A DNA stretch of 64,000 nt from positions 13,081,501 through 13,145,500 of the forward strand of contig JAPYXD010000677.1 of NCBI GenBank assembly GCA_030998225.1, given 5' to 3'. Position numbers and translations under genes: made by a program. The notes under the pieces were generated by a model. That model was not told the origin of the DNA. It saw only the letters and a list, made by a program, of their open reading frames with translations, and made no database searches. Origin of the DNA: Diplolepis rosae (lineage: Eukaryota > Arthropoda > Insecta > Hymenoptera > Diplolepididae). Below are positions 6,901-63,302 of this stretch, piece by piece; positions within the stretch are counted from its first letter, which is position 1; each line of letters starts with the position of its first letter.

Positions 6901-9900
6901 AAAAAAAACTTGGATCCACGCGTCTCCAGGAATACGAGTACAACTTGATTGCAGAGTCAACGCCTGGCCAGAGTCTAAGGTGAGATGTCCACTTCACGGA
7001 GGAAAAACGTCTGTTACATTTAATTAATGTTTCAATACAATTTACCTTTTTTTTGTGAATATAAAAGATTTATCGATAAATACTACATAAATGCCTATTG
7101 AATGAACATTTTGAAAATAATTCCTAATCCTGTAAATTTAACAGGAATTTCTAAAATGTTTATCGACAAATCTGCTATGTTAAAAAAATCGGTGAAGTGT
7201 ACTGAAATATGTGTTAACTTTGAAGATATTTTATGTTGTCACTATTTTAACTTATGAACTCAGCAAATGTAACAGATTTTTTTTCTCTATACCAATAAAT
7301 TTTTATCACCAACGTAAAGTATTATTAGCACTATATTTCAAATAAATCTTTCAAATAATTTTGGATATTTCTCGATGTGCGAAATTTTTGAAGTACTAAC
7401 AGAATTCATATATACAGTGTGTCTAAAAAGTCCCGGGACGGTTGGATATTTCCTCGGGTAAAACATTTTTCAAAAAAGTGAAGGTCATTCCTGGAGTAAA
7501 TTCCAACGAGGAATTCAATGGTGACCTTCATTTTAACCTTGAAGTTGACCTTCGTGGCTTTTTGAAGGTCAACTTTGTTTTTTAAAATGGAAACCCCCTT
7601 TTTTTACATCTGCAATAGATAGAGCGGAAAATTCTACGTTCAGATACGTACCCAAGTCATAGGTCAATTGTAACGTTCAAGGTCAATTAGAGGTAATACT
7701 GTTTTGCACAAGAAAAGAGAATCTCTATCAATTCTGTCCATCATAATTTCACAAAATTCAACCCAACGATCAGGATCGTCTTCATTGAGCTCTTGTACCA
7801 GATGAACTTTGTGAGGCTGGAAATTAATGCTTTTTAAAATATTCCGGACTGTCTCAGGAACAACGTCACGCTCATCACTAGCTCGACGTAAACTAAGGTG
7901 TGGGTTTTCAACAAATGCATGGGCTATGTCCATCTGCATCTCCTCAGAGCCTGCAGATTTTGGCCGACAAGTTCTCTGAAGGTCCTTGATAGATCCATGA
8001 TTCATAAAGCGCCTCACAGTTCTTTCAATTGTTGATTTTGAGACAGGATTTAACCCTTCTCCATTACGAAAAGTGCGATTAAAAAGCAAACGAACTTGAT
8101 CATAAGATCGAACTCGATCTCCCCAACCACGCATCATTAATACAGATACCCTCTCTCGTTCCGAAAGTTTAGCTTGCGCCATAATAAAAAATGGTATAGG
8201 ACTTATGGTATCGCCTTAGGTATTGACTTAGGTATCGAAAAACGGTATAGGACTTTTCGATATAACGCTTTGAGGAGGAACAGAACTCTCACCAGATCTC
8301 CTGGAACTTTTAATGAAAAATTTCCTATACATATGATTTTACAGTATTCAAAACGCTGTAACCAAGATCAATACAAAGCTCACCAATTAATTTCTCGTTG
8401 AAATTTACTTCAGGAATTACACTGACCTCTTGGAAAACTTTATTGATTTCAAATAACCTCTAATTGACCTTGAATGTTACAATTGACCTATGACTTGGGT
8501 ACGTACTTGAACGTAGTATTTTTCGCTCTATCGATTGCAGATGTGAAAAAAGGGGGTTTCCATTTAAAAAAAAAACAAAGTTGACCTTCAAAAAGCTATG
8601 AAGGTCAACTTCAAGGTAAAAAAGAAGGTCACCATTGAATTCCTCGTTGAAATTTACTTTAGGAATTACAATCACCTATTGGAAAACTTTGTTTATTTCA
8701 AATAACCTCTAATTGACCTTGAACGTTACAATTAATCTATGACTTGGGTACGTATCTGAACGTAGAATTTTCCGCTCTATCGATTGCAGATGTGAAAAAA
8801 GGGGGTTTCCATTTAAAAAAAAAACAAAGTTGACCTTCAAAAAGCTATGAAGGTCAACTTCAAGGTAAAAAAGAAGGTCACCATTGAATTCCTCGTTGAA
8901 ATTTACTTTAGGAATGACCTTCACTTTTTTGAAAAATATTTTACCTGAGGAAATATCCAACCGTCCCGGGACTTTTTAGACACCCTGTATAAATATTGGC
9001 GTATATTGCACATTTTTAATTTAATCAGTAATTCTTTTTTTTTTTGCCTGGAATTTCTAGATGAAGAGATTTTTATGTTCATTATTAAACATCTGACAAT
9101 TTGAATTTGAATAATTTAATTTTCAGGTGAATTGGTATTTTAACGAAGTTAGAATTCCCTTTTCGCAAAGAATAGTGCAGCAAGTTAATGAAAATATTCA
9201 CAGTTTGATTATAAGAAAAGTCATTACGAATGACTTTGGCTTCTACAACTGCAATGCTATCAATCAAGTGGGGTCAGCGTCAGTTGTTATCGAATTATCA
9301 GGTGTGGCAAATCCTGCTGTTTTTAAAAAAGAGTCACATCCCATCTCAAATACATCTTATAGTTTCAGCTGGGAGGTTGATAGTTACAGTTCTATCATTG
9401 AATATCAATTCTGGTTTCGAAGATACAAGGTGAGACAGAGTTGCGATAACACTGTATTTTATTATTATGAGACATGTTTGTACTCATGTCTTTGTTTTTT
9501 GTCTTGACCCAAAATTGAATTCGTTTAATTATTTTTGTATTGGCATTGGGCCAGTTTCTTAACGTTAAAGTCTTTAATTCATGGACATATTATAAAAAGG
9601 AAGCTAAAAAACAGAATCAGATAAATCATAGGGAAGCTAAACAACTATTCATAAAAAAAATTTAAAAACATAATTTATTATAATATCTATACAGGGTGAG
9701 GCACATAAAGTGTTACAGAGCGATAGCATTCAAACTATTGATCACATCAAAAAATGTTTCAGACAAAAGTTTTAGTGTTCAAGAAGGCCGTCATACTCGA
9801 CCTTTTTTTATCGATGGAGGCGCTGAAGCTACGTCAAGGTCAACTCCACTTTTTTAAATGGAACCATGTATTTTTTCTCGATGACATTATTACCGATTTT

Positions 9901-23352: not shown

Positions 23353-26300
23353 TTAAGTTTGTAATGTATTAGAAATTTCTCGATGTACTGTGACCAAATC
23401 TTGAATATATCCAGCTAATCTGGCGTTCAAAGTATCTAAATTTTGTTTCTGAACTTTATTTGCACTTAATGCAAGCTCCAATTGTTCATGGACTACATTT
23501 AACATGTCACGAAGTTCTACATTTTCTTTCTGCAAAGCCTATAAAGTAAAACCTTTGTTAATATAGAAATCAATTTACACCATATCTTTGATGTATACAA
23601 ATCAATATACGTACCACGTAGTCTTTAGTTTTGGTTGTCATTGTGAGAACTTTGATCTCGTCGTTTCGTGTTCTAAGTTCATTTTCTAAGGCTTCCACTC
23701 GTAACCTTAACGCTTCGACATTTCCTTCTGCAATCTTGCCAGCTTCCAGATCTGCGTACTTTGCCTTAACTCGTGCATTTTCTTCCTTATAAAGTTGTAA
23801 CTGCCTTTTCCATTCATCTACGTTGGCTGTTGATTCTTGAAGAGCACTAGTTAATCTGGCATTATTTGTTTTGAGTGTAGTCAACTCGACCTGTTGCAAA
23901 GTAAAAGTATATAAAACAAATCAATTTTATTACAATATTGCCTATAAATCACTGTCCAAGTAAATTGTATTTCAAATCATTAAATTCTCATTAAATGAAA
24001 ATTCACTGCAATTAGTCAAAAGATAAATTTAGTACTTCAGAAACATTCCAACTTTCACGGAAAGTTTTCCGGCATCAGTCTAACTTTATCTGAAAATCGA
24101 TAATTTCTCTTTCCACAAAAATTTCTCTAATGTCTGGAAGAACTAAAACACGTAACATCTTGATGTTTAATATTTAAGATACGGGTGAAGCAGACTATCT
24201 ACAGACTAGTGGAGTGATATTATTGAAAATGCAGTAAAAATAATTTCACGCACCTCCCATTTTTTAGCGTTAGCAGAACTTTGTGCAAGTGCCAGCTTTA
24301 ACCTATCGTTTTCATACTTTAGTTGCATTTCTGTTGATTGGCCACTTTGTGCTGAACTGTGCTGAGATGATTTTCCCTGATGCTGAGGACTCTCTGTGTT
24401 CTGTTGAGAAATACTTTGTGATCTTGAGTGAATTGCATTTTTGAATTCTTCATCTTTGCCCTGACCACCTCCAGGAAGTGGACTATTGCTCACGGAAGAT
24501 ATGCTGTTTTGAGCAGAGATCATATTGACATTTGAATTGTGATTATTTGAAGTCGACATATTGGAATTCATCATCGAGGAATTTGGAGGGTCAATCAAAT
24601 CTTGGTCCCCGGAAGTCATACCGGATCGAGATGTAATTGGACTAACATTAGCACTAGTAGCTGGTGTCACGGACGAACTATTAGACTGCAATTTGCTGCC
24701 TGCTAATTTTGTAGCTTCCTTGACTTCGTGGAATTTTTCAATAAACTAAAAATGGATGTTTCAAATATTTCAAATTATTAGATACTTTATTAAAGTGACA
24801 GTAAATAAGTTAAAATACTAACTTTTGCTAATTCAGCTTCTGAGGAGAAACCCAGACCGTAAACGGTATTTGCCCTCGCATCCGACCATTGGCCAAACTT
24901 TTGCGAAGTTTTGGTAAATGCCATGTTTGGTGTAACAGTGCTATTAATTACTGCCTGAAAAAGTTTTTAAATTCTGGATGCAATAGAAAGGACTTATATA
25001 TTTCGAACAATTTTTTATTTAATACAGTTTAAGGGCTTTAATAAAACATATTTATTAAATTATATACAATTTCGGGGTGGATGAGTAATATTTACCTTTG
25101 TGCCATCTACAGATATGATTCTGTAAAGACTCCGAGTTGAATCATAAAAAAATGAAACTGAAACTGCTGCTGTGGATGCTGACACCCATGATCTTTTTGT
25201 CTTCGGATCAATATGAAACACGTGCGCTTTGCACGTGAAAATCGGCTGTTCCCTAGAATTAATTTTAATTTGATATTTATTTTTATCCAATTAATAATAT
25301 GAGAAAACTGAACAGCATGAAAGAGATCACAGCAGTGGTATAAAAGCTGAAGACATTCTAAATTGAAATTAATTATCATACTTGTTACTTCTTCGAACAT
25401 TTTATATTTTCAATGTAGAACAAATTGTGTTCTATTGTTTTTATTATTAGATTAAGTGTATTATTATTCAATAAACTTTTCAGACAAAGAACTTTATAAG
25501 TGGAATGTAAAAGCAATCTCGTTAATGGTTAAATGTAAAATTTTTCAAAACAAGCGATTAGATTTTCAAGAATCTGCTTTTAATATTTTACAATTTAGAA
25601 TTAAAACATTCATAACTTCAAGTGCATATATAATACACAAAAGAATTAAATTTTCAAATCTAAAATGTAATTATCAGAGTTATAAAACTATCCTTTCGGA
25701 ATTAATCAATAATTGTCACTACAAAAAATTGAAAAATAAATTAATCAATAACTACAAGAAGTTTGAATTACATTATGCAATTATATCATAGAATTACTGA
25801 TAAATCAATTATTATGATACAAATGCATGGATTCCATTGAGTTAGATAAAAAAAGATAAGCACTGGTAATATAAACATGATACTTGTAAAAACATGATAC
25901 AGAATATTTTAAATTTTGAATAAAATTATTATTCATACACTGCTGAATAATAAAGCAAAGAGGGTGGAAAATAAGCACAATTGACTTTTACATATGGAAT
26001 AAGCGTGTAAGTATTGTTCATGTACTCAGTTCTTGTCTTACACAAACTAAGTACTCCGACAATGGATAAATAACTATATCCTTTGTATCAAGAGCAACAG
26101 AAAGTCACAGCCGGTTTTTTTTCTCCAATTAGTTAAATTACTAATAAACTATCTCAAAATTCTCTTAGAGTATACACGTGGCTGGAGCATAACCCGAAAG
26201 AAAATAAATTAATCAATTGATAATTTGTATATATTTGACTTGTAGAAAGTATAAAAAAGCAAGTGAAGTTTTTCAGATCACTGCTCCAATCGACTCGAGT

Positions 26301-27845: not shown

Positions 27846-30581
27846 ATGAACGGGTTAAGTTTGAGCGAATTATGTTGCCTATTTTGCTGCCCGCCCTGCC
27901 CTTCCAGAATTGCCGCCAAACTAGCATTTTTGCCTCCAGAGCCAACCTACAGCTTCATTGAAGACGAAGGCTCGAAATATATAATTTCTTTGTCCGAGAG
28001 AGCGGAATGGCAGTATTCGGAAAGAGAAAAGGAGTCCATGGAGGGTTTCTACGCCAGGACGTCTCGAGGAAATCGCATAGCATGTCTCTTTGTTCGATGC
28101 TCGGCGACAGCGAGGTTCACAATTCTCTTCTCTCACGGTAATGCCATCGATCTGGGCCAGATGTCTAGCTTTTATTTGGGCTTAGGGTCAAGAATTAATT
28201 GCAACATATTTAGCTATGATTATTCTGGATACGGTGTCTCAGGAGGTAAACCCTCGGAAAAAAATTTGTATGCTGATATTGATGCTGCCTGGCATGCTCT
28301 CAGAACTCGATATGGTATAAGTCCTGAAAATATAATCTTATATGGACAAAGTATTGGTACAGTTCCCACAGTCGATTTAGCATCCAGGTATGAAGTCGGT
28401 GCTGTTGTTCTACATTCACCTCTTATGTCTGGCATGAGAGTTGCATTTCCAAATACAAAGAGGACTTGGTTCTTCGATGCCTTTCCTAGGTAAGTCAAAA
28501 ATCTTCTTATCGTATCACTTTATCAAAGACATTTATTTTCAGGTGGCGTTCTTGATATTCGGCTTGTTTTTTATCATACGCCGTTTCCAGACGGGCCATT
28601 TGGATTTTTTTTATCTTACTTTTGTAACAGAAAAGACGTGTGTTATTTACATATAATATTGTTTTATTGTGTCAAATATTACTGAGATCTTGCAGATATC
28701 ACTTTTATTTTTACCAGAAAATTGTGTGGAAATAACTATAACAGAAGTGAGCAATTTTTTAAATCAAGCTTATGTTAGTTTATTATATTCATTTACTTAT
28801 TACCATATTATTATTACTTAAAAGCGCTTAAAAATTATTAACAATTTTGATGAAAAATGAAACATTAGTGAAAGGAGGGAAATCTAGAAAAGTTGAAATT
28901 GGCAAAGTTATCTAATTTCATTTAACATCTTGATTTAATATTTATCAGGTTTCATACGAGTATTTATTAAAGCATTTTGTAATTAAAATAACTATTCTTG
29001 AATTATTTGTGCATTAGACATTATCAAAATCTTCGCTTAAAGTGTACAGGATGTCATATCTGTTCTATTTGTTTAATTTGAGATTAAAGTATGTGAACAA
29101 TTGTTACACATTCAAATTCATGCACAGATAATAACTCTGTATGTTATACAATTTCTCCATCCTTATAATATTTCATATTTTAGTAGAGTAGATCTACAAA
29201 AATTTCAAACTCAACCACCTAATTTGAAATTATCTTAAAAGTTCAGTATTTCAATTAATTAAGCATTCATTATTGATGTACCAAATAAAGCTTTTTCATG
29301 AAGAAATGTATAATTGACAGATTTTATCATATGTTTATTATATTATTAGTTGATCTTATAATTTAATTTGCACAAGCTCTATTTTATTCGTAAATATACT
29401 TATGCTTAGTGTCAAAAAAACTTTAAAATGCTTCAGTAAAATTTTTCTAATCAAATTGAAAAAAAAATTACCTGCCATTTTAAAAGAAACATATGTCTTT
29501 TGACTTTTCATATTTGTTATTAATTTATAATTTAGTAACAAAAGTATTTGCGTATTAATAAAACCTCGATATATATAATTTTTTTCTCTCTTAAAATAAA
29601 AAACAGTAAACATTTCTTTTTCAGATATTACCAAATCAAAGTTTTAATTTATTATAATGCAATATTGTTTCTGTTACAGTATAGATAAAGTGCCGAAGGT
29701 GACATCGCCTGTGTTAGTTATTCATGGAACCGAAGATGAAGTTATAAATTTCAGTCATGGATTAGCAATTTATGAAAGATGTCCAAGAGCTGTAGAGCCC
29801 TTATGGGTCGAGGTAATCACAAAATACTTTCACGTATTTTCTCCTAATAAAAGTCTTTCAGCTACTTTGATTTTCACAAGTTCCATATTTTTTTATATCC
29901 ATAATCGCGAAATAATGAGTAGATGAGAAGAGTTAAATTAAGATCCTATTATTAACTGAAAACAATAAATCTAGGGTAGTATGTTATTAACTGAACTTCA
30001 AATAACTATTGAATCTAAGAATGTGGGACTATTTCTTTGTGTAAGCATTGATTTCTAATATCTGCAATATACAGACTGTATGCTGTGTTACAATAATAGT
30101 TCACATTATCTCCCTTTCGTATGTTCTACATTTCACACAAAAAATATTTCAAATTTAAAACAATATATAATTAGAACTTTTGAAGTAGATAAATTCAAAA
30201 GCTTTGCAGTTATATTTTCTTTGAATGTGAAACCCGTATTTTCACCAGAGTTATTTTTATCCTAATCAGTTATTTACAATTCTATTCCATGCATGTGAAA
30301 ATGAAAACAAATCATCACTTCCGCCAGTACGACTTTATAATAGCCCAGATGCTATTTAAAATTATTAACTAACATTTGCAATTTGTATTATTATAAAAAG
30401 TCCAGGAACAGCTTTTATAATTTAATCGTATAATGAAATATAATTATTTCCAAATACTTTTCAATTGGAATTTATGAAAATGCTAATCTTGTTTCAGGGT
30501 GCTGGTCACAATGATGTGGAATTATACAACCAGTATTTAGAACGCCTAAAGCAATTTGTGAGTGTGGAATTGGTGAACTGA
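27846..30581 (+). CDS. ABHD17: ABHD17-family alpha/beta hydrolase (protein depalmitoylase)
   Basis: Exons 27846-28489, 29680-29812 and 30498-30581 join to 286 residues, the normal size for ABHD17 (FAM108). The start ATG gives [20 protein letters not shown]. The N-terminal Cys cluster (Cys10, 11, 14, 15, 18) is the family's palmitoylated membrane anchor. The fold shows [13 protein letters not shown] (oxyanion region), the nucleophile elbow GQSIG with Ser169, Asp234 in HGTEDEV, and His263 in GAGHND, so the catalytic triad is complete. Established: mammalian ABHD17 enzymes remove palmitate from N-Ras and PSD-95 at membranes. The stop codon is TGA followed by CGG, and the same frame stays open beyond it (see 30582-31984). 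It is divergently paired with homer. Confidence 0.95.
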
Positions 30582-30584
30582 CGG
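30579..30584 (+). promoter_or_regulatory. Candidate leaky stop context TGA-CGG (ABHD17 stop)
   Basis: The ABHD17 stop reads AAC TGA CGG CGA. TGA followed by CGG or CTA is an established efficient readthrough context in several RNA viruses and some animal genes. The frame stays open for 46 codons after it. Readthrough here is inferred from context only. Confidence 0.5.
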
Positions 30585-31984
30585 CGACTCAGCCTCTCCC
30601 AGAGTCAGGGAGGGCAGGGAGTTGGTCACACACACGTCAATAGTCAGGTACAATCACTATCAAATAACTCAAATACAATCAGCTCTATCTCGACCAGCTC
30701 GCCTACTGAAAAGCTCGTATAGCAATCACCTTCCGCAGGGGAGGTCGCTGTATCCCCCTGTGACGGAGGTCCTTCACCAGTATCTAATAAAGAGGTAATA
30801 TTTTTTCCTGAGGAACAAGAGAAGCCTAAAGGAGAGAAACGTAATTCTGCAAAGGCAGTCAAGAAGAAACTACATTGTGTTCGAAAAGAGTCCGAATTAA
30901 ACGATCTCAAAGCAATATTTAACACCAAGTCAGACAGTTTGGATAATAAATGGGAAAAAATCAACGCTGAGGACGGCAGAGGTATCGACAACAAAACGTG
31001 TTCAAAAACCAATCCGCATTGTAAATTGAACCGTCGCAAGAAACGTGTATCGCAAGGTTGTACCGAACACGAGGGCTTGAAAGCTCCAGTAACCAGTAGG
31101 AAGAAAGAGAAGGCGAATTCATCAATTTCAGAAGCTTCAAATGATGTAAATATCGGTACAAACTCGAAAGATTCTCGATATAAACGCATTAAAACCTCTC
31201 TTACAACTTATATTCATTACAATTCCAGGTTCTTGAGGAGGCTGTTAGTAAAGAAGAGATAAAACCTCATTCCAAAACGCGATTTGTTGCCAAAGAGTCA
31301 GACTTTCAAAGCAGCGACTGTAGCGATGACCTGGATCTGGAGTTGCCAAAAAGCAAGAAATACTTATGGTTCAGTAAGAATTCAAGGAATCACCTAGCCA
31401 AAGGTCTTCGCCAGATAACCAAAGTTGCTCAGGATAAAAGCAAAGCGGTAAAGCCTTTCAAACTTAAGAAGCCTTCATGTAGCCCCAACAAAAAACCCAA
31501 CAGATCGTCTCTAACAATAGAACCGGACAAGATTACCCTCAATTTTTCGAAGTACTCTCCTTGTGCGAGCAGATTAGCAGCAAGTTCAAAGATTCTATCT
31601 AATGAAAGCGCCTCTAATTCGGAGAGTCCACTACACATAGTGCACTCTCAAAGTCCTTCGCGTATTGATATACAGCCAGCGAACTCGTTACCCTTGGATA
31701 AAATGTCAATTGAGGCCAGTCTATCTTTGAATATCCATCAGTTTCAAAAGACTCGTTCCAACTCACGCAGCAGGAGTTTCGGAGACAGTTGTGTCACATC
31801 ACCAACTAGCGAGGGCACAACTTTGAGTTATTCTCCTACAGTAACTGAAATTTTGTCCTTAGAAGAAGTCATACCTCAGATATTGGTGACGGACGATTCG
31901 CCAAGTTACCTAGACGTTAAAAGAAAATCAGATAACAATCTCCCCGAAAAGGCATGTAAAGCTACTTTGGAGACCAAATGTTAG
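30582..31984 (+). CDS. In-frame C-terminal extension of ABHD17 (readthrough or alternative splice product)
   Basis: In the ABHD17 frame, 46 sense codons follow the TGA (begins RRLSLSQSQGGQGVG), then TAG at 30720-30722, then 141 codons to 31145. A GTAAAT...TTCCAG intron (31146-31228, 83 nt) follows, then 251 codons (begins VLEEAVSKEEIKPHSK) to a TAG at 31982. The intron joins phase 0 to phase 0, and reading through it would end at 31262. No in-frame ATG occurs before 31703, so independent initiation of this frame is unlikely. Codon use and GC content are gene-like compared with the flanking AT-rich DNA. The predicted tail is hydrophilic: Lys/Arg-rich in the first part (NRRKKRVSQG, TSRKKEKANSS), Ser-rich later (SPCASRLAASSK, TRSNSRSRSFGDS). 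I recognise no domain. It could instead be a separate gene's 3' exons or a splice isoform that skips both stops. Confidence 0.6.
30720..30728 (+). promoter_or_regulatory. Candidate leaky stop context TAG-CAA-TCA (second in-frame stop)
   Basis: The second stop reads GTA TAG CAA TCA. It matches the stop-CAR-YYA readthrough signal known from tobacco mosaic virus and its relatives, where efficient suppression is established. It follows the first stop by 46 codons and is followed by 141 open codons. Function here is inference. Confidence 0.5.
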
Positions 31985-60578: not shown

Positions 60579-61502
60579 TTATTCAAAGTATTGCCCATCT
60601 GAAACTATGACTTTTTCCCATCTTTCTGGCAATTTGTGGATTCCATCCCAAAAGAACTGCGCCGGCTTGGCGGCCAAGATTGAATCAAGCCAATTTTTGA
60701 TACCCTGTTCTGATGTGAACCGTATTCCAGTGAGGGCGTTCTGCATCAATCGGAACAAATGGTAGTCAGAAGGGACAAGGTCTGGGCTCTAAGGCGGGTG
60801 GGGTAAAACTTCCCATCCACTGTTTTCCAAATAGTTCTTAACCGGAATAGCAACATGGGGCCGAGCGTTGTCATGATGGAAAATTATTGCCTCGTGTCTG
60901 GTCGCATATTCCGGGCGTTTTTCGGCTATTGCTCTCTTCAAACGGAGTAATTGTGTTCGGTAGCGTTCTCCATTAATGGTTTCACCCGGTTTTAGCAGCT
61001 CATAATACAGTACACCCTTCTCATCCCACCAAGTACAGAGCATTACCTTCGCACCATGAATATTCGGCTTTGCCGTTGATTTGGCTGGTTGGCCGGGTTT
61101 CACATATGATTTTTTGCGCTTGGGGTTGTCGTAATGGATCCATTTTTCATCATCAGTAAAAATCCGATGCAAAAATGACTTCTTTTTGTGGCGTTCCAGC
61201 AGCATTTCGGACATGCAAAACCGCCTTTCAACGTCTCTCAACTTGAGTTCATGTGGAACTCCCACAGATTCTGCGAGCTCTTTTTGTGTTTGGCAACAAT
61301 CTTCATCGAGTAATGCTTCCAGTTCTTCATCTTTAAACTTTTTTGGCTGCCCAGGACGTTCTTCGTCTTCCAACCCAAAATCACCGCTTTTAAATCGTGC
61401 AAACCACTTTTAGCACGTTCGCTCAGCTAGAGCATTTTCGCCATAAACTTCCACCAAAATACGATGACTTTCGGCAGCAGTTTTCTTCACAAAGTTCGAC
61501 AT
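60579..61502 (-). pseudogene. Mariner transposase pseudogene (D,D34D type)
   Basis: The frame begins MSNFVKKTAAESHRILVEVY at 61502 and runs on the minus strand to TAA at 60579. It has the N-terminal helix-turn-helix region, DDEKWIHYDNPKRKK with the first catalytic Asp, HHDNARPHVA with the second, and SPDLVPSDYHLF with the third. The C-terminus DGQYFE is intact. It is broken by TAA within the N-terminal region (near 61411) and TAG just before SPDL (near 60789), and about 20 residues are missing between GV and PHELKLRDVE. Intact family members are about 345 residues. It is the most nearly complete transposase in the window. Confidence 0.9.
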
Positions 61503-62519: not shown

Positions 62520-63302
62520 CACAGTGTGTCCCAAAAATACCCGAACTTTTTAGATATAGAATAAGGTACACATTATATTATCTTTGAAAGTTATTATTTA
62601 TTCAAAATAGGTCCCATTAGACTCAATATAACGTTTGGAACGATCAAGCAGCGCATGCATAGATTTTTTTATGTCATTTATAGGAATGTTCTTCAGCACC
62701 TCGGTTACAGTTACTTGAATGGCTGGGATATCATCATAAAATGCTCCTTTCATCTTGGTTTTCAGTTTTGGAAATAGAAAATAGTCACATGGTGATAGAT
62801 CAGGCGAATGCGGAGGGTGGTTGATGAGAGAAATCCGTTTTTTCATAAAAAATTCGTTCACTTTTTTGGTCTTTTGAGGTGGTGCATTCAACTGATGTGA
62901 AACAAAACGTGCACAGACCTTTCTTTTACCCAAATCTTCAGTTAAAATTCTCCAAATAGTGTTTTTACTCGTATTTAATTCCTCAGCCTACATTCTCGTA
63001 GTAAAATTTGCATCGATACCAATGATTTTACGGACTTTTTCCACCAATTCAGCGAATTTTTTTTCAACTTTAACACAAAATTTTAGATTTGCTCTTTGTT
63101 CCATTTTTGTTTTGTAACATTAGCACACTTTTTCTTTTATTGAAATGGCTGTAACTTTCACATCTGTCATCCGATTTACATGAATTTAGGTGCGTTTGAA
63201 AGAGAATGAATGTATCTTTTGAATGCGGCAAATTTTCAATAGATGGCGCTGCATGTTGTATGATTTAAATATAAAGTTCGGTTATTTTTGGGACACACTA
63301 TG
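62520..63302. mobile_element. Internally deleted mariner element
   Basis: CACAGTGTGTCCCAAAAATA (left) and, reverse-complemented, CATAGTGTGTCCCAAAAATA (right) are flanked by TA at 62518-62519 and 63303-63304. The element is 783 bp, against about 1.3 kb for full-length mariners. A broken transposase lies inside on the minus strand. Confidence 0.9.
62598..63104 (-). pseudogene. Deleted mariner transposase
   Basis: The frame starts MEQRANLKFCVKVEKKFAEL at 63104. It has TAG at 62988-62990, then AEELNTSKNTIWRIL and LGKRKVCARFVSHQL (DNA-binding region end). It then jumps from QKTKKV straight to a late segment with HPPHSPDLSPCDYFLF, which carries the third catalytic Asp. The C-terminus SNGTYFE and stop at 62598 are intact. 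The middle of the protein, with the first two catalytic acids, is deleted. It is a different mariner lineage from the one at 60579-61502. Confidence 0.88.

Follow-up and report, generated by a model that had tools for sequence, protein, structure and literature searches.

During our analysis of a 64,000-nt stretch of the Diplolepis rosae genome (contig JAPYXD010000677.1, positions 13,081,501 to 13,145,500; hereafter the window) we encountered a gene for the depalmitoylase ABHD17 whose reading frame stays open far beyond its stop codon. The frame ends at a TGA, resumes for 46 codons up to a TAG (extension 1, ext1), and then continues for another 392 codons, interrupted by one short intron, to a final stop (extension 2, ext2, or the tail). 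Comparison with related proteins indicates that ext2 is very probably expressed as a C-terminal extension of ABHD17. From the sequence we tentatively propose that readthrough of both stops in tandem may be the route by which this extension is reached in this species.

Judged from its sequence, the protein possesses the N-terminal Cys cluster and the alpha/beta-hydrolase domain with a GxSxG motif that characterise ABHD17, and it matches PF12146, PF12697, PF00561 and PF00326 above the Pfam cut-off. The ABHD17 frame encodes 286 residues and terminates at 30579-30581 of the window; if one residue is counted for each internal stop, the whole frame amounts to 726 residues. On re-reading the sequence, the coordinates, codon counts, intron and both stop contexts in a preliminary description of this locus proved correct to the base, as did its statement that no in-frame ATG follows the TGA until 31703, there being none in ext1 or in the first 299 codons of ext2. 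At the base composition of each piece, the chance of an open frame is 0.13 for the 46 codons of ext1 but 1e-4 and 2e-7 for the 141 and 251 codons of the two parts of ext2, so ext1 is unremarkable by openness alone whereas the long ext2 pieces are remarkable. In the 758-Mb assembly only one match to the first part of ext2 was found, and the protein models of Belonocnema and Leptopilina read across the same join as that made by the 83-nt intron (31146-31228). A short mRNA could result if the AATAAA at 30786-30791, inside ext2 and approximately 205 nt past the TGA, acted as an early poly(A) signal; conservation of this motif is unlikely, since Belonocnema has ND where the window has NK.

A protein search with ext2 (392 residues) and ext1 as the query returned 65 matches at E<=10 among 5365 candidates, and a longer query permitting larger proteins, which gave 53 matches among 4929 candidates, added no protein. 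Organism names are attached to 31 of the 65 matches and the other 34 are unnamed; all of the named ones are from Hymenoptera, the order having been looked up for three. The tail occurs in wasps, ants, bees and sawflies, and the closest named matches are those of Belonocnema (Cynipidae, 68% identity) and Leptopilina (Figitidae, 66%). Identity of at least 80% in at least 45 sequences is reached in 107 of the 392 columns of ext2, and conservation is concentrated in RSSLTIEPDKI..SKYSPCASRLAASSKILS, in RSRSVGDSCVTSPTSEATT.SYSPTGTEILSLEE and in the C-terminus LETKC. The best conserved blocks (RSSLTIEPDKI..SKYSPCASRLAASSKILS, RSRSxGDSCVTSPTSE..TEILSLEEV and the terminal LETKC) are carried by the second part of ext2, and 50 of the 65 proteins end in LET[KM]C. 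The tail is basic and Ser-rich, as had been predicted (Ser 15%; 67 Lys and Arg against 51 Asp and Glu, hence net positive), and it is probably disordered. A structure prediction for the long form from Ampulex (41 sequences) has a mean pLDDT of 46.9, is devoid of secondary structure in the tail and is poor across much of the hydrolase as well; a model of such low confidence fits disorder but proves nothing.

The tail is fused to ABHD17 in four of the 65 models, those from Ampulex, Polistes exclamans, Vespula and Frieseomelitta. The remaining models start at various Met residues (MHANSQG.., MRAVRD.., MQTAKD.., MSAVKD.., MHSPP.., MSIQSP.., and many further inside), and some lack an initial Met, namely those of Leptopilina (which starts exactly at QSPSAG), Hylaeus (SPPTGEK) and Prorops (QKEDS) among the named proteins and P0022, P0046 and P0065 among the unnamed. 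Scattered or Met-less starts tend to be the usual outcome when an exon without a start of its own is annotated. The 65 matches and four fused models support the earlier view of ext2 as conserved coding sequence that belongs with ABHD17.

Some lineages have modified the tail. Ten of the 65 proteins (P0052-P0057 and P0059-P0062, of which the named ones are from bees) end in ..RSVGELC[NH].. and have lost the block CVTSPTSE..LETKC, a lineage-specific shortening. Strongly diverged tails ending in QSPR or RNLR are found in the chalcid Phymastichus (P0064) and in the unnamed P0063 and P0065, all of which keep LSKYSPCASRLAASSKIL.

The piece between the stops also resembles protein from relatives, and does so in frame. 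Frame +0 of ext1 aligns with the N-termini of four ant proteins (HANSQGRTVSNNSNT against HVNSQVQSLSNNSNT) with scores of 55, 56, 56 and 70, compared with no more than 25 in any of the five other frames and with 0 of 2000 shuffles scoring as well; the score of 70 derives partly from SSPTEK paired with ant SPPTGEK, which may belong to ext2. The Aphidius protein (SQGGHGEGD..SISNYLNTIS) scores 46 against at most 23 in other frames (2 of 2000 shuffles). As a control, 653 internal 60-residue tail segments were scored; none exceeded 43 and seven reached 37. Since control segments reach 43, the ants and Aphidius alone are clear of this background, and the matches to other ichneumonoid-type proteins rest on their shared position. 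Scores of at least 30 within the first 70 residues were obtained for 14 of the 65 tail proteins. In Aphidius and its kin the ext1-like piece continues in one frame into CDDEPSPVSSDEVFF, the start of their ext2, and the ant models likewise hold ext1-like and ext2-like pieces in a single reading frame.

A separate protein search for ABHD17 isoforms with extended ends gave five matches at E<=1 among 122 candidates, three of them new (P0066-P0068). P0066 is an unnamed ABHD17 (143 of 156 ABHD17 residues identical) whose extension ends in NASITISSNSNVSTTEKLL, which aligns without gaps with NNSNTISSISTSSPTEKLV directly before the TAG of the window (12 of 19 residues identical). After its Trp, P0066 scores 44 against ext1, other frames giving at most 21 (0 of 2000 shuffles). 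P0067 and P0068 read ..SVELTN-W-QRN..SSVTEKLL-W.. All three proteins run from VEL(V/T)N straight through the position of the first stop into the extension, with a Trp at that position that may represent TGG or a TGA read as Trp. For P0067 and P0068 it is, on the sequence, the TEKLL at the border that carries the argument. Taken together, these alignments suggest that the two stops of the window sit at the borders of a conserved piece. Its G+C content is 0.50, as against 0.24-0.31 in the introns of the gene, and no 138-nt piece of introns 1 and 2 exceeds 0.355.

The Trp residues of P0067 and P0068, both JGI protein records, are an observation in their own right. Trp occupies both stop positions and, beyond TEKLL, makes up 7 of 178 and 5 of 136 residues, an excess that suggests TGA codons. 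We did not count these residues as proof of TGG, because they look like the work of a gene caller that reads TGA as Trp; The 3' end of an animal gene thus appears to have been translated with TGA as Trp, probably an artefact of gene calling that happens to show the extension.

Both stops lie in contexts known to be leaky. UGA followed by CGG or CUA is the viral type II readthrough motif and UAG-CAR-YYA the type I motif, and type II signals usually possess a stem-loop approximately 8 nt 3' of the stop (PMC3542737). The first stop, UGA-CGG, conforms to type II, with a predicted hairpin starting 1 nt behind it, and the second, UAG-CAA-UCA, conforms to type I, its activity being putative. The two contexts, earlier described as classic leaky ones, are the two classic viral ones, each with a predicted hairpin behind it, and they are of the leaky kind looked for in an insect readthrough gene. 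On both strands of the window CGG or CTA follows 38 of 2637 TGA triplets and CARYYA follows 4 of 1488 TAG triplets, the sites at 30579 and 30720 included. Only the 30579 site, among those 38, is followed by an equally stable fold in the next 60 nt. Shuffled sequences as stable as the first hairpin numbered 1 of 200 (47 nt), 6 of 200 (64 nt), 4 of 200 (102 nt from the stop) and 18 of 1000 (60 nt), and among 658 coding 60-mers from this gene 10 reach that stability; for the second hairpin the figure is 2 of 200 at 53 nt.

What is observed comprises the features of the sequence, a conserved ext2 and an ext1 whose peptide resembles relatives in frame; from this we infer a scheme for the decoding of the stops, its rate and the function of the tail in which one mRNA would give rise to up to three nested proteins. 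Most ribosomes would halt at the TGA and release ABHD17 of 286 residues. Some would decode UGA-CGG, aided by the hairpin behind it, and add ext1 to give 333 residues; part of these would also decode UAG-CAA-UCA, again with a hairpin behind, and add the 392 residues of ext2 to give approximately 726. In its long form the depalmitoylase, anchored to the membrane, would bear a basic, Ser-rich tail, and the conserved blocks of this tail presumably bind partners or kinases. A more elaborate version, unlikely as a whole, would make this a two-step rheostat in which a type II and then a type I signal in an animal mRNA, with a hairpin for each, give proteins of 286, 333 and approximately 726 residues. 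The second stop would at the same time be a 3' splice site, through which some lineages (aculeates) would reach the long protein by splicing instead, and the first stop would alternate with Trp through a codon change or through A-to-I editing of UGA to UGG.

Several observations weigh against tandem readthrough. The hairpin after the TAG loses its significance in a fold of 101 nt (49 of 200 shuffles as stable). Three other ichneumonoid-type proteins score only 37, 30 and 30 against ext1 (7, 12 and 31 of 2000 shuffles), values that are singly not beyond chance, and 5 of the 13 N-termini tested have no ext1 match. Of the 14 tail proteins with scores of at least 30, six (P0023, P0037, P0049, P0051, P0055 and P0062) were set aside as matching elsewhere in the tail, three of them on inspection. 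P0067 and P0068 score only 32, their other frames reaching 27 and 29 (25 and 28 of 2000 shuffles). Nor is the ext1 frame favoured by codon usage, since 698 of 2000 shuffles do as well, and its +1 frame is also open, with a higher codon-usage score. As to coding conservation past the stops, which the preliminary description made its test, the peptides of ext2 are conserved; in ext1 the in-frame peptide similarity is suggestive, and the codon usage is uninformative. The other points against concern splicing: both stops are skipped in all four fused models; in the models of Vollenhovia, Dinoponera and Pogonomyrmex the switch of sequence falls exactly before (Q)SPPTGEK, the pattern expected of a splice junction at that point; and the GTGAAC donor at 30573 is at least as good as the one used by the 83-nt intron (10.6% as against 13% of 2981 GT score as well, on a matrix of approximate insect frequencies). 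The inference of tandem readthrough is partly supported, by the conserved tail, the ext1 similarity and the stop contexts, but had been drawn without considering splicing from 30573 to 30722, from 30648 to 30722 or to 30602.

Alternative splicing of an intron within the last exon is a possible, although somewhat unlikely, sole explanation. A phase-0 GT..AG stretch runs in the window from the donor TTG/GTGAAC at 30573, within the codons for Val and Asn that precede the TGA, as far as the AG of the TAG at 30722; its removal would take out 150 nt and both stops in phase, so that the retained form would encode short ABHD17 and the spliced form a protein of 676 residues, with no recoding. Such a junction, KQF[IV]S[VI]EL to SPxxGE or QSPPTGE, is used by the models of Ampulex, Polistes exclamans and Vespula, with the Q variably present, as expected of tandem acceptors; in the Frieseomelitta model KQFI is joined to DVNQ. 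From the protein models a fair argument can be made for a real acceptor before (Q)SPPTGEK in aculeates. These models are nevertheless no proof, since gene finders can insert introns to dodge in-frame stops. The signals in the window are also poor: the donor, for all that it compares with that of the 83-nt intron, lacks a G at +5, and the acceptor has no pyrimidine tract and is weak, 41% of 3029 AG scoring as well compared with 2.6%, 10.9% and 4.5% for the three introns of the gene. Furthermore, the G+C content of the stretch is unlike that of the introns of the gene, and splicing alone leaves unexplained both the peptide similarity of ext1 and the two leaky contexts.

A mixed route, in which the TGA is read through to give ext1 and the TAG is avoided by a small phase-0 intron of 75 nt (30648-30722), is rather more doubtful. 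It would account for the ext1 similarity, and its donor, CAG/GTACAA, is no worse than that of the 83-nt intron (6.4% of 2981 GT score as well). The models of Temnothorax, Cardiocondyla and Solenopsis pass from SNNSNT to SPPTGEK with 0, 1 or 5 residues between, which may reflect splicing or simply a shorter sequence. The same weak acceptor at the TAG would have to be used, however, and a splice after SNNSNT, if that is what ants do, has no counterpart in the window, which lacks a GT there.

It is improbable that ext2, with or without ext1, is an independent gene or cistron that has a promoter or start of its own, although 61 of the 65 tail models stand apart from ABHD17, NCBI names them as LOC genes, and those of Vollenhovia, Dinoponera and Megachile begin with the short, similar N-termini MQTAKD, MRAVRD and MSAVKD. 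A strict M.AVKD-type pattern for such a first exon finds no match on the plus strand of the window, starts are not conserved among the models, fused models exist, and the lack of an early ATG in the window, described above, tells against it. It is very unlikely that an alternative acceptor at 30602 is used, by which the exon ending at 29812 would be joined to ext1 with loss of the hydrolase end (including GAGHND) and of the TGA. The site itself (CTCTCCCAG/AG) is good, being in phase and equalled by 3.1% of AG, like the acceptors of the gene proper. The part skipped, however, holds what we presume to be the catalytic His of ABHD17, the TAG would remain, and P0066-P0068 run from VEL(V/T)N straight through the stop position into the extension. 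That recent nonsense mutations or errors of assembly created the stops is scarcely credible, as nothing beyond the stops themselves speaks for it, models from other Hymenoptera also break near these places, and ext2 is conserved, with a first part that is single in the assembly.

Table 1. Positions in the window of the ABHD17 gene, its extensions, the predicted hairpins and the candidate splice sites
Feature	Position	Strand	Evidence or score
ABHD17 coding exon 1, with N-terminal Cys cluster and nucleophile motif	27846..28489	+	sequence, Pfam
ABHD17 coding exon 2	29680..29812	+	sequence
ABHD17 final coding stretch to first stop; no splice site required before 31145	30498..30581	+	
Candidate 150-nt phase-0 intron GTGAAC..TAG, would remove both stops (rival)	30573..30722	+	
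First stop TGA-CGG, type II readthrough context	30579..30584	+	
Ext1, 46 codons separating the two stops	30582..30719	+	in-frame peptide similarity to relatives
Predicted hairpin directly after TGA, -21.6 kcal/mol	30583..30627	+	z -2.55 (47 nt), -1.97 (64 nt)
Acceptor-like CTCTCCCAG/AG in phase with exon ending 29812; skips 30498-30602 and TGA (rival)	30602..30603	+	
Candidate 75-nt phase-0 intron GTACAA..TAG, would remove second stop only (rival)	30648..30722	+	
Second stop TAG-CAA-TCA, type I context; doubles as AG of possible 3' splice site	30720..30728	+	
Ext2 first part, 141 codons	30723..31145	+	
Predicted hairpin 5 nt past TAG, -22.7 kcal/mol	30728..30770	+	z -2.41 (53 nt), -0.73 (101 nt)
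83-nt GT..AG intron, phase 0, between codons	31146..31228	+	
Ext2 second part, 251 codons, and final stop TAG 31982-31984	31229..31984	+	best conserved blocks

Further searches looked for DNA of relatives and covered the surroundings of the gene. ABHD17 exons 2-3 and the ant tail were sought in viral contigs and no relative was found; a search of prokaryote contigs with the ABHD17 exons gave 29 loci, all titled bacterial, with no insect contamination. Scans of the 64-kb window for tRNA and Rfam families gave no match. Beside ABHD17, minus-strand open frames at 24206-24745 and 23570-23920 encode Ser/Gln-rich and coiled-coil-like protein, which we take to be Homer-like; neither piece has a Pfam match. 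Pieces of transposase are present on the minus strand, namely PF01359 (mariner type) at 60789-61409 and, below the curated cut-off, HTH_32 at 7664-8215 and DDE_3 at 62598-62987. An exon encoding an immunoglobulin I-set domain lies on the plus strand at 9115-9507.

In the public models found, the tail is listed mostly as separate uncharacterized genes (61 of 65 not joined to ABHD17). Should the tail prove to be the C-terminus of ABHD17, these entries are misannotated, and one order of insects possesses a depalmitoylase with a long tail and strongly conserved motifs. Under tandem readthrough, ABHD17 would provide a clear natural case of two different leaky contexts, with hairpins, acting serially in an animal. 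It would also offer a direct case in which readthrough and splicing may compete to pass one stop codon.

The locus can be compared with four known systems. Exitron-type alternative splicing switches a C-terminus by means of a retained or exonic intron. The present gene resembles it in having a phase-0 GT..AG stretch in the last coding exon whose removal lengthens the protein, with the junction present in three aculeate models, but differs in its weak acceptor and exon-like G+C content in this species, and the leaky contexts would then be coincidence. The ABHD17 depalmitoylases are attached to membranes via a palmitoylated N-terminal Cys cluster and act on N-Ras (PMC4755737), and the Drosophila homologue is CG33096 (PMC3506735). 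The Cys cluster, the alpha/beta-hydrolase matches and the Ser nucleophile motif are shared with these enzymes, whereas the available text on the mammalian proteins mentions no such tail (PMC4755737). Searches of the literature gave no description of ABHD17 or CG33096 readthrough, although the bumblebee candidate table (PMC7826183), which lay outside that search, may contain it.

Readthrough is common in insects, as had been assumed for this locus: 353 candidate transcripts are reported in Anopheles gambiae, with 35 candidates for double readthrough (Jungreis et al. 2016, PMC5100048), and 851 candidate stops in bumblebees (PMC7826183). Readthrough and double readthrough are therefore already known as kinds. 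The conserved insect genes and ABHD17 have in common a TGA-C context, an in-frame extension with peptide similarity, predicted hairpins and two serial stops (PMC5100048). In ABHD17, by contrast, the second extension is approximately 390 residues long and is interrupted by an intron, the second stop doubles as a candidate 3' splice site, and coding is supported here by peptide similarity rather than by proof of the PhyloCSF type. The viral type II and type I signals are matched letter for letter, with a predicted hairpin behind each stop (PMC3542737). The hairpins predicted here start 1 nt after the TGA and 5 nt after the TAG, rather than approximately 8 nt as in the viral signals, and the two kinds of signal are, as predicted from sequence, arranged in series within one animal gene.

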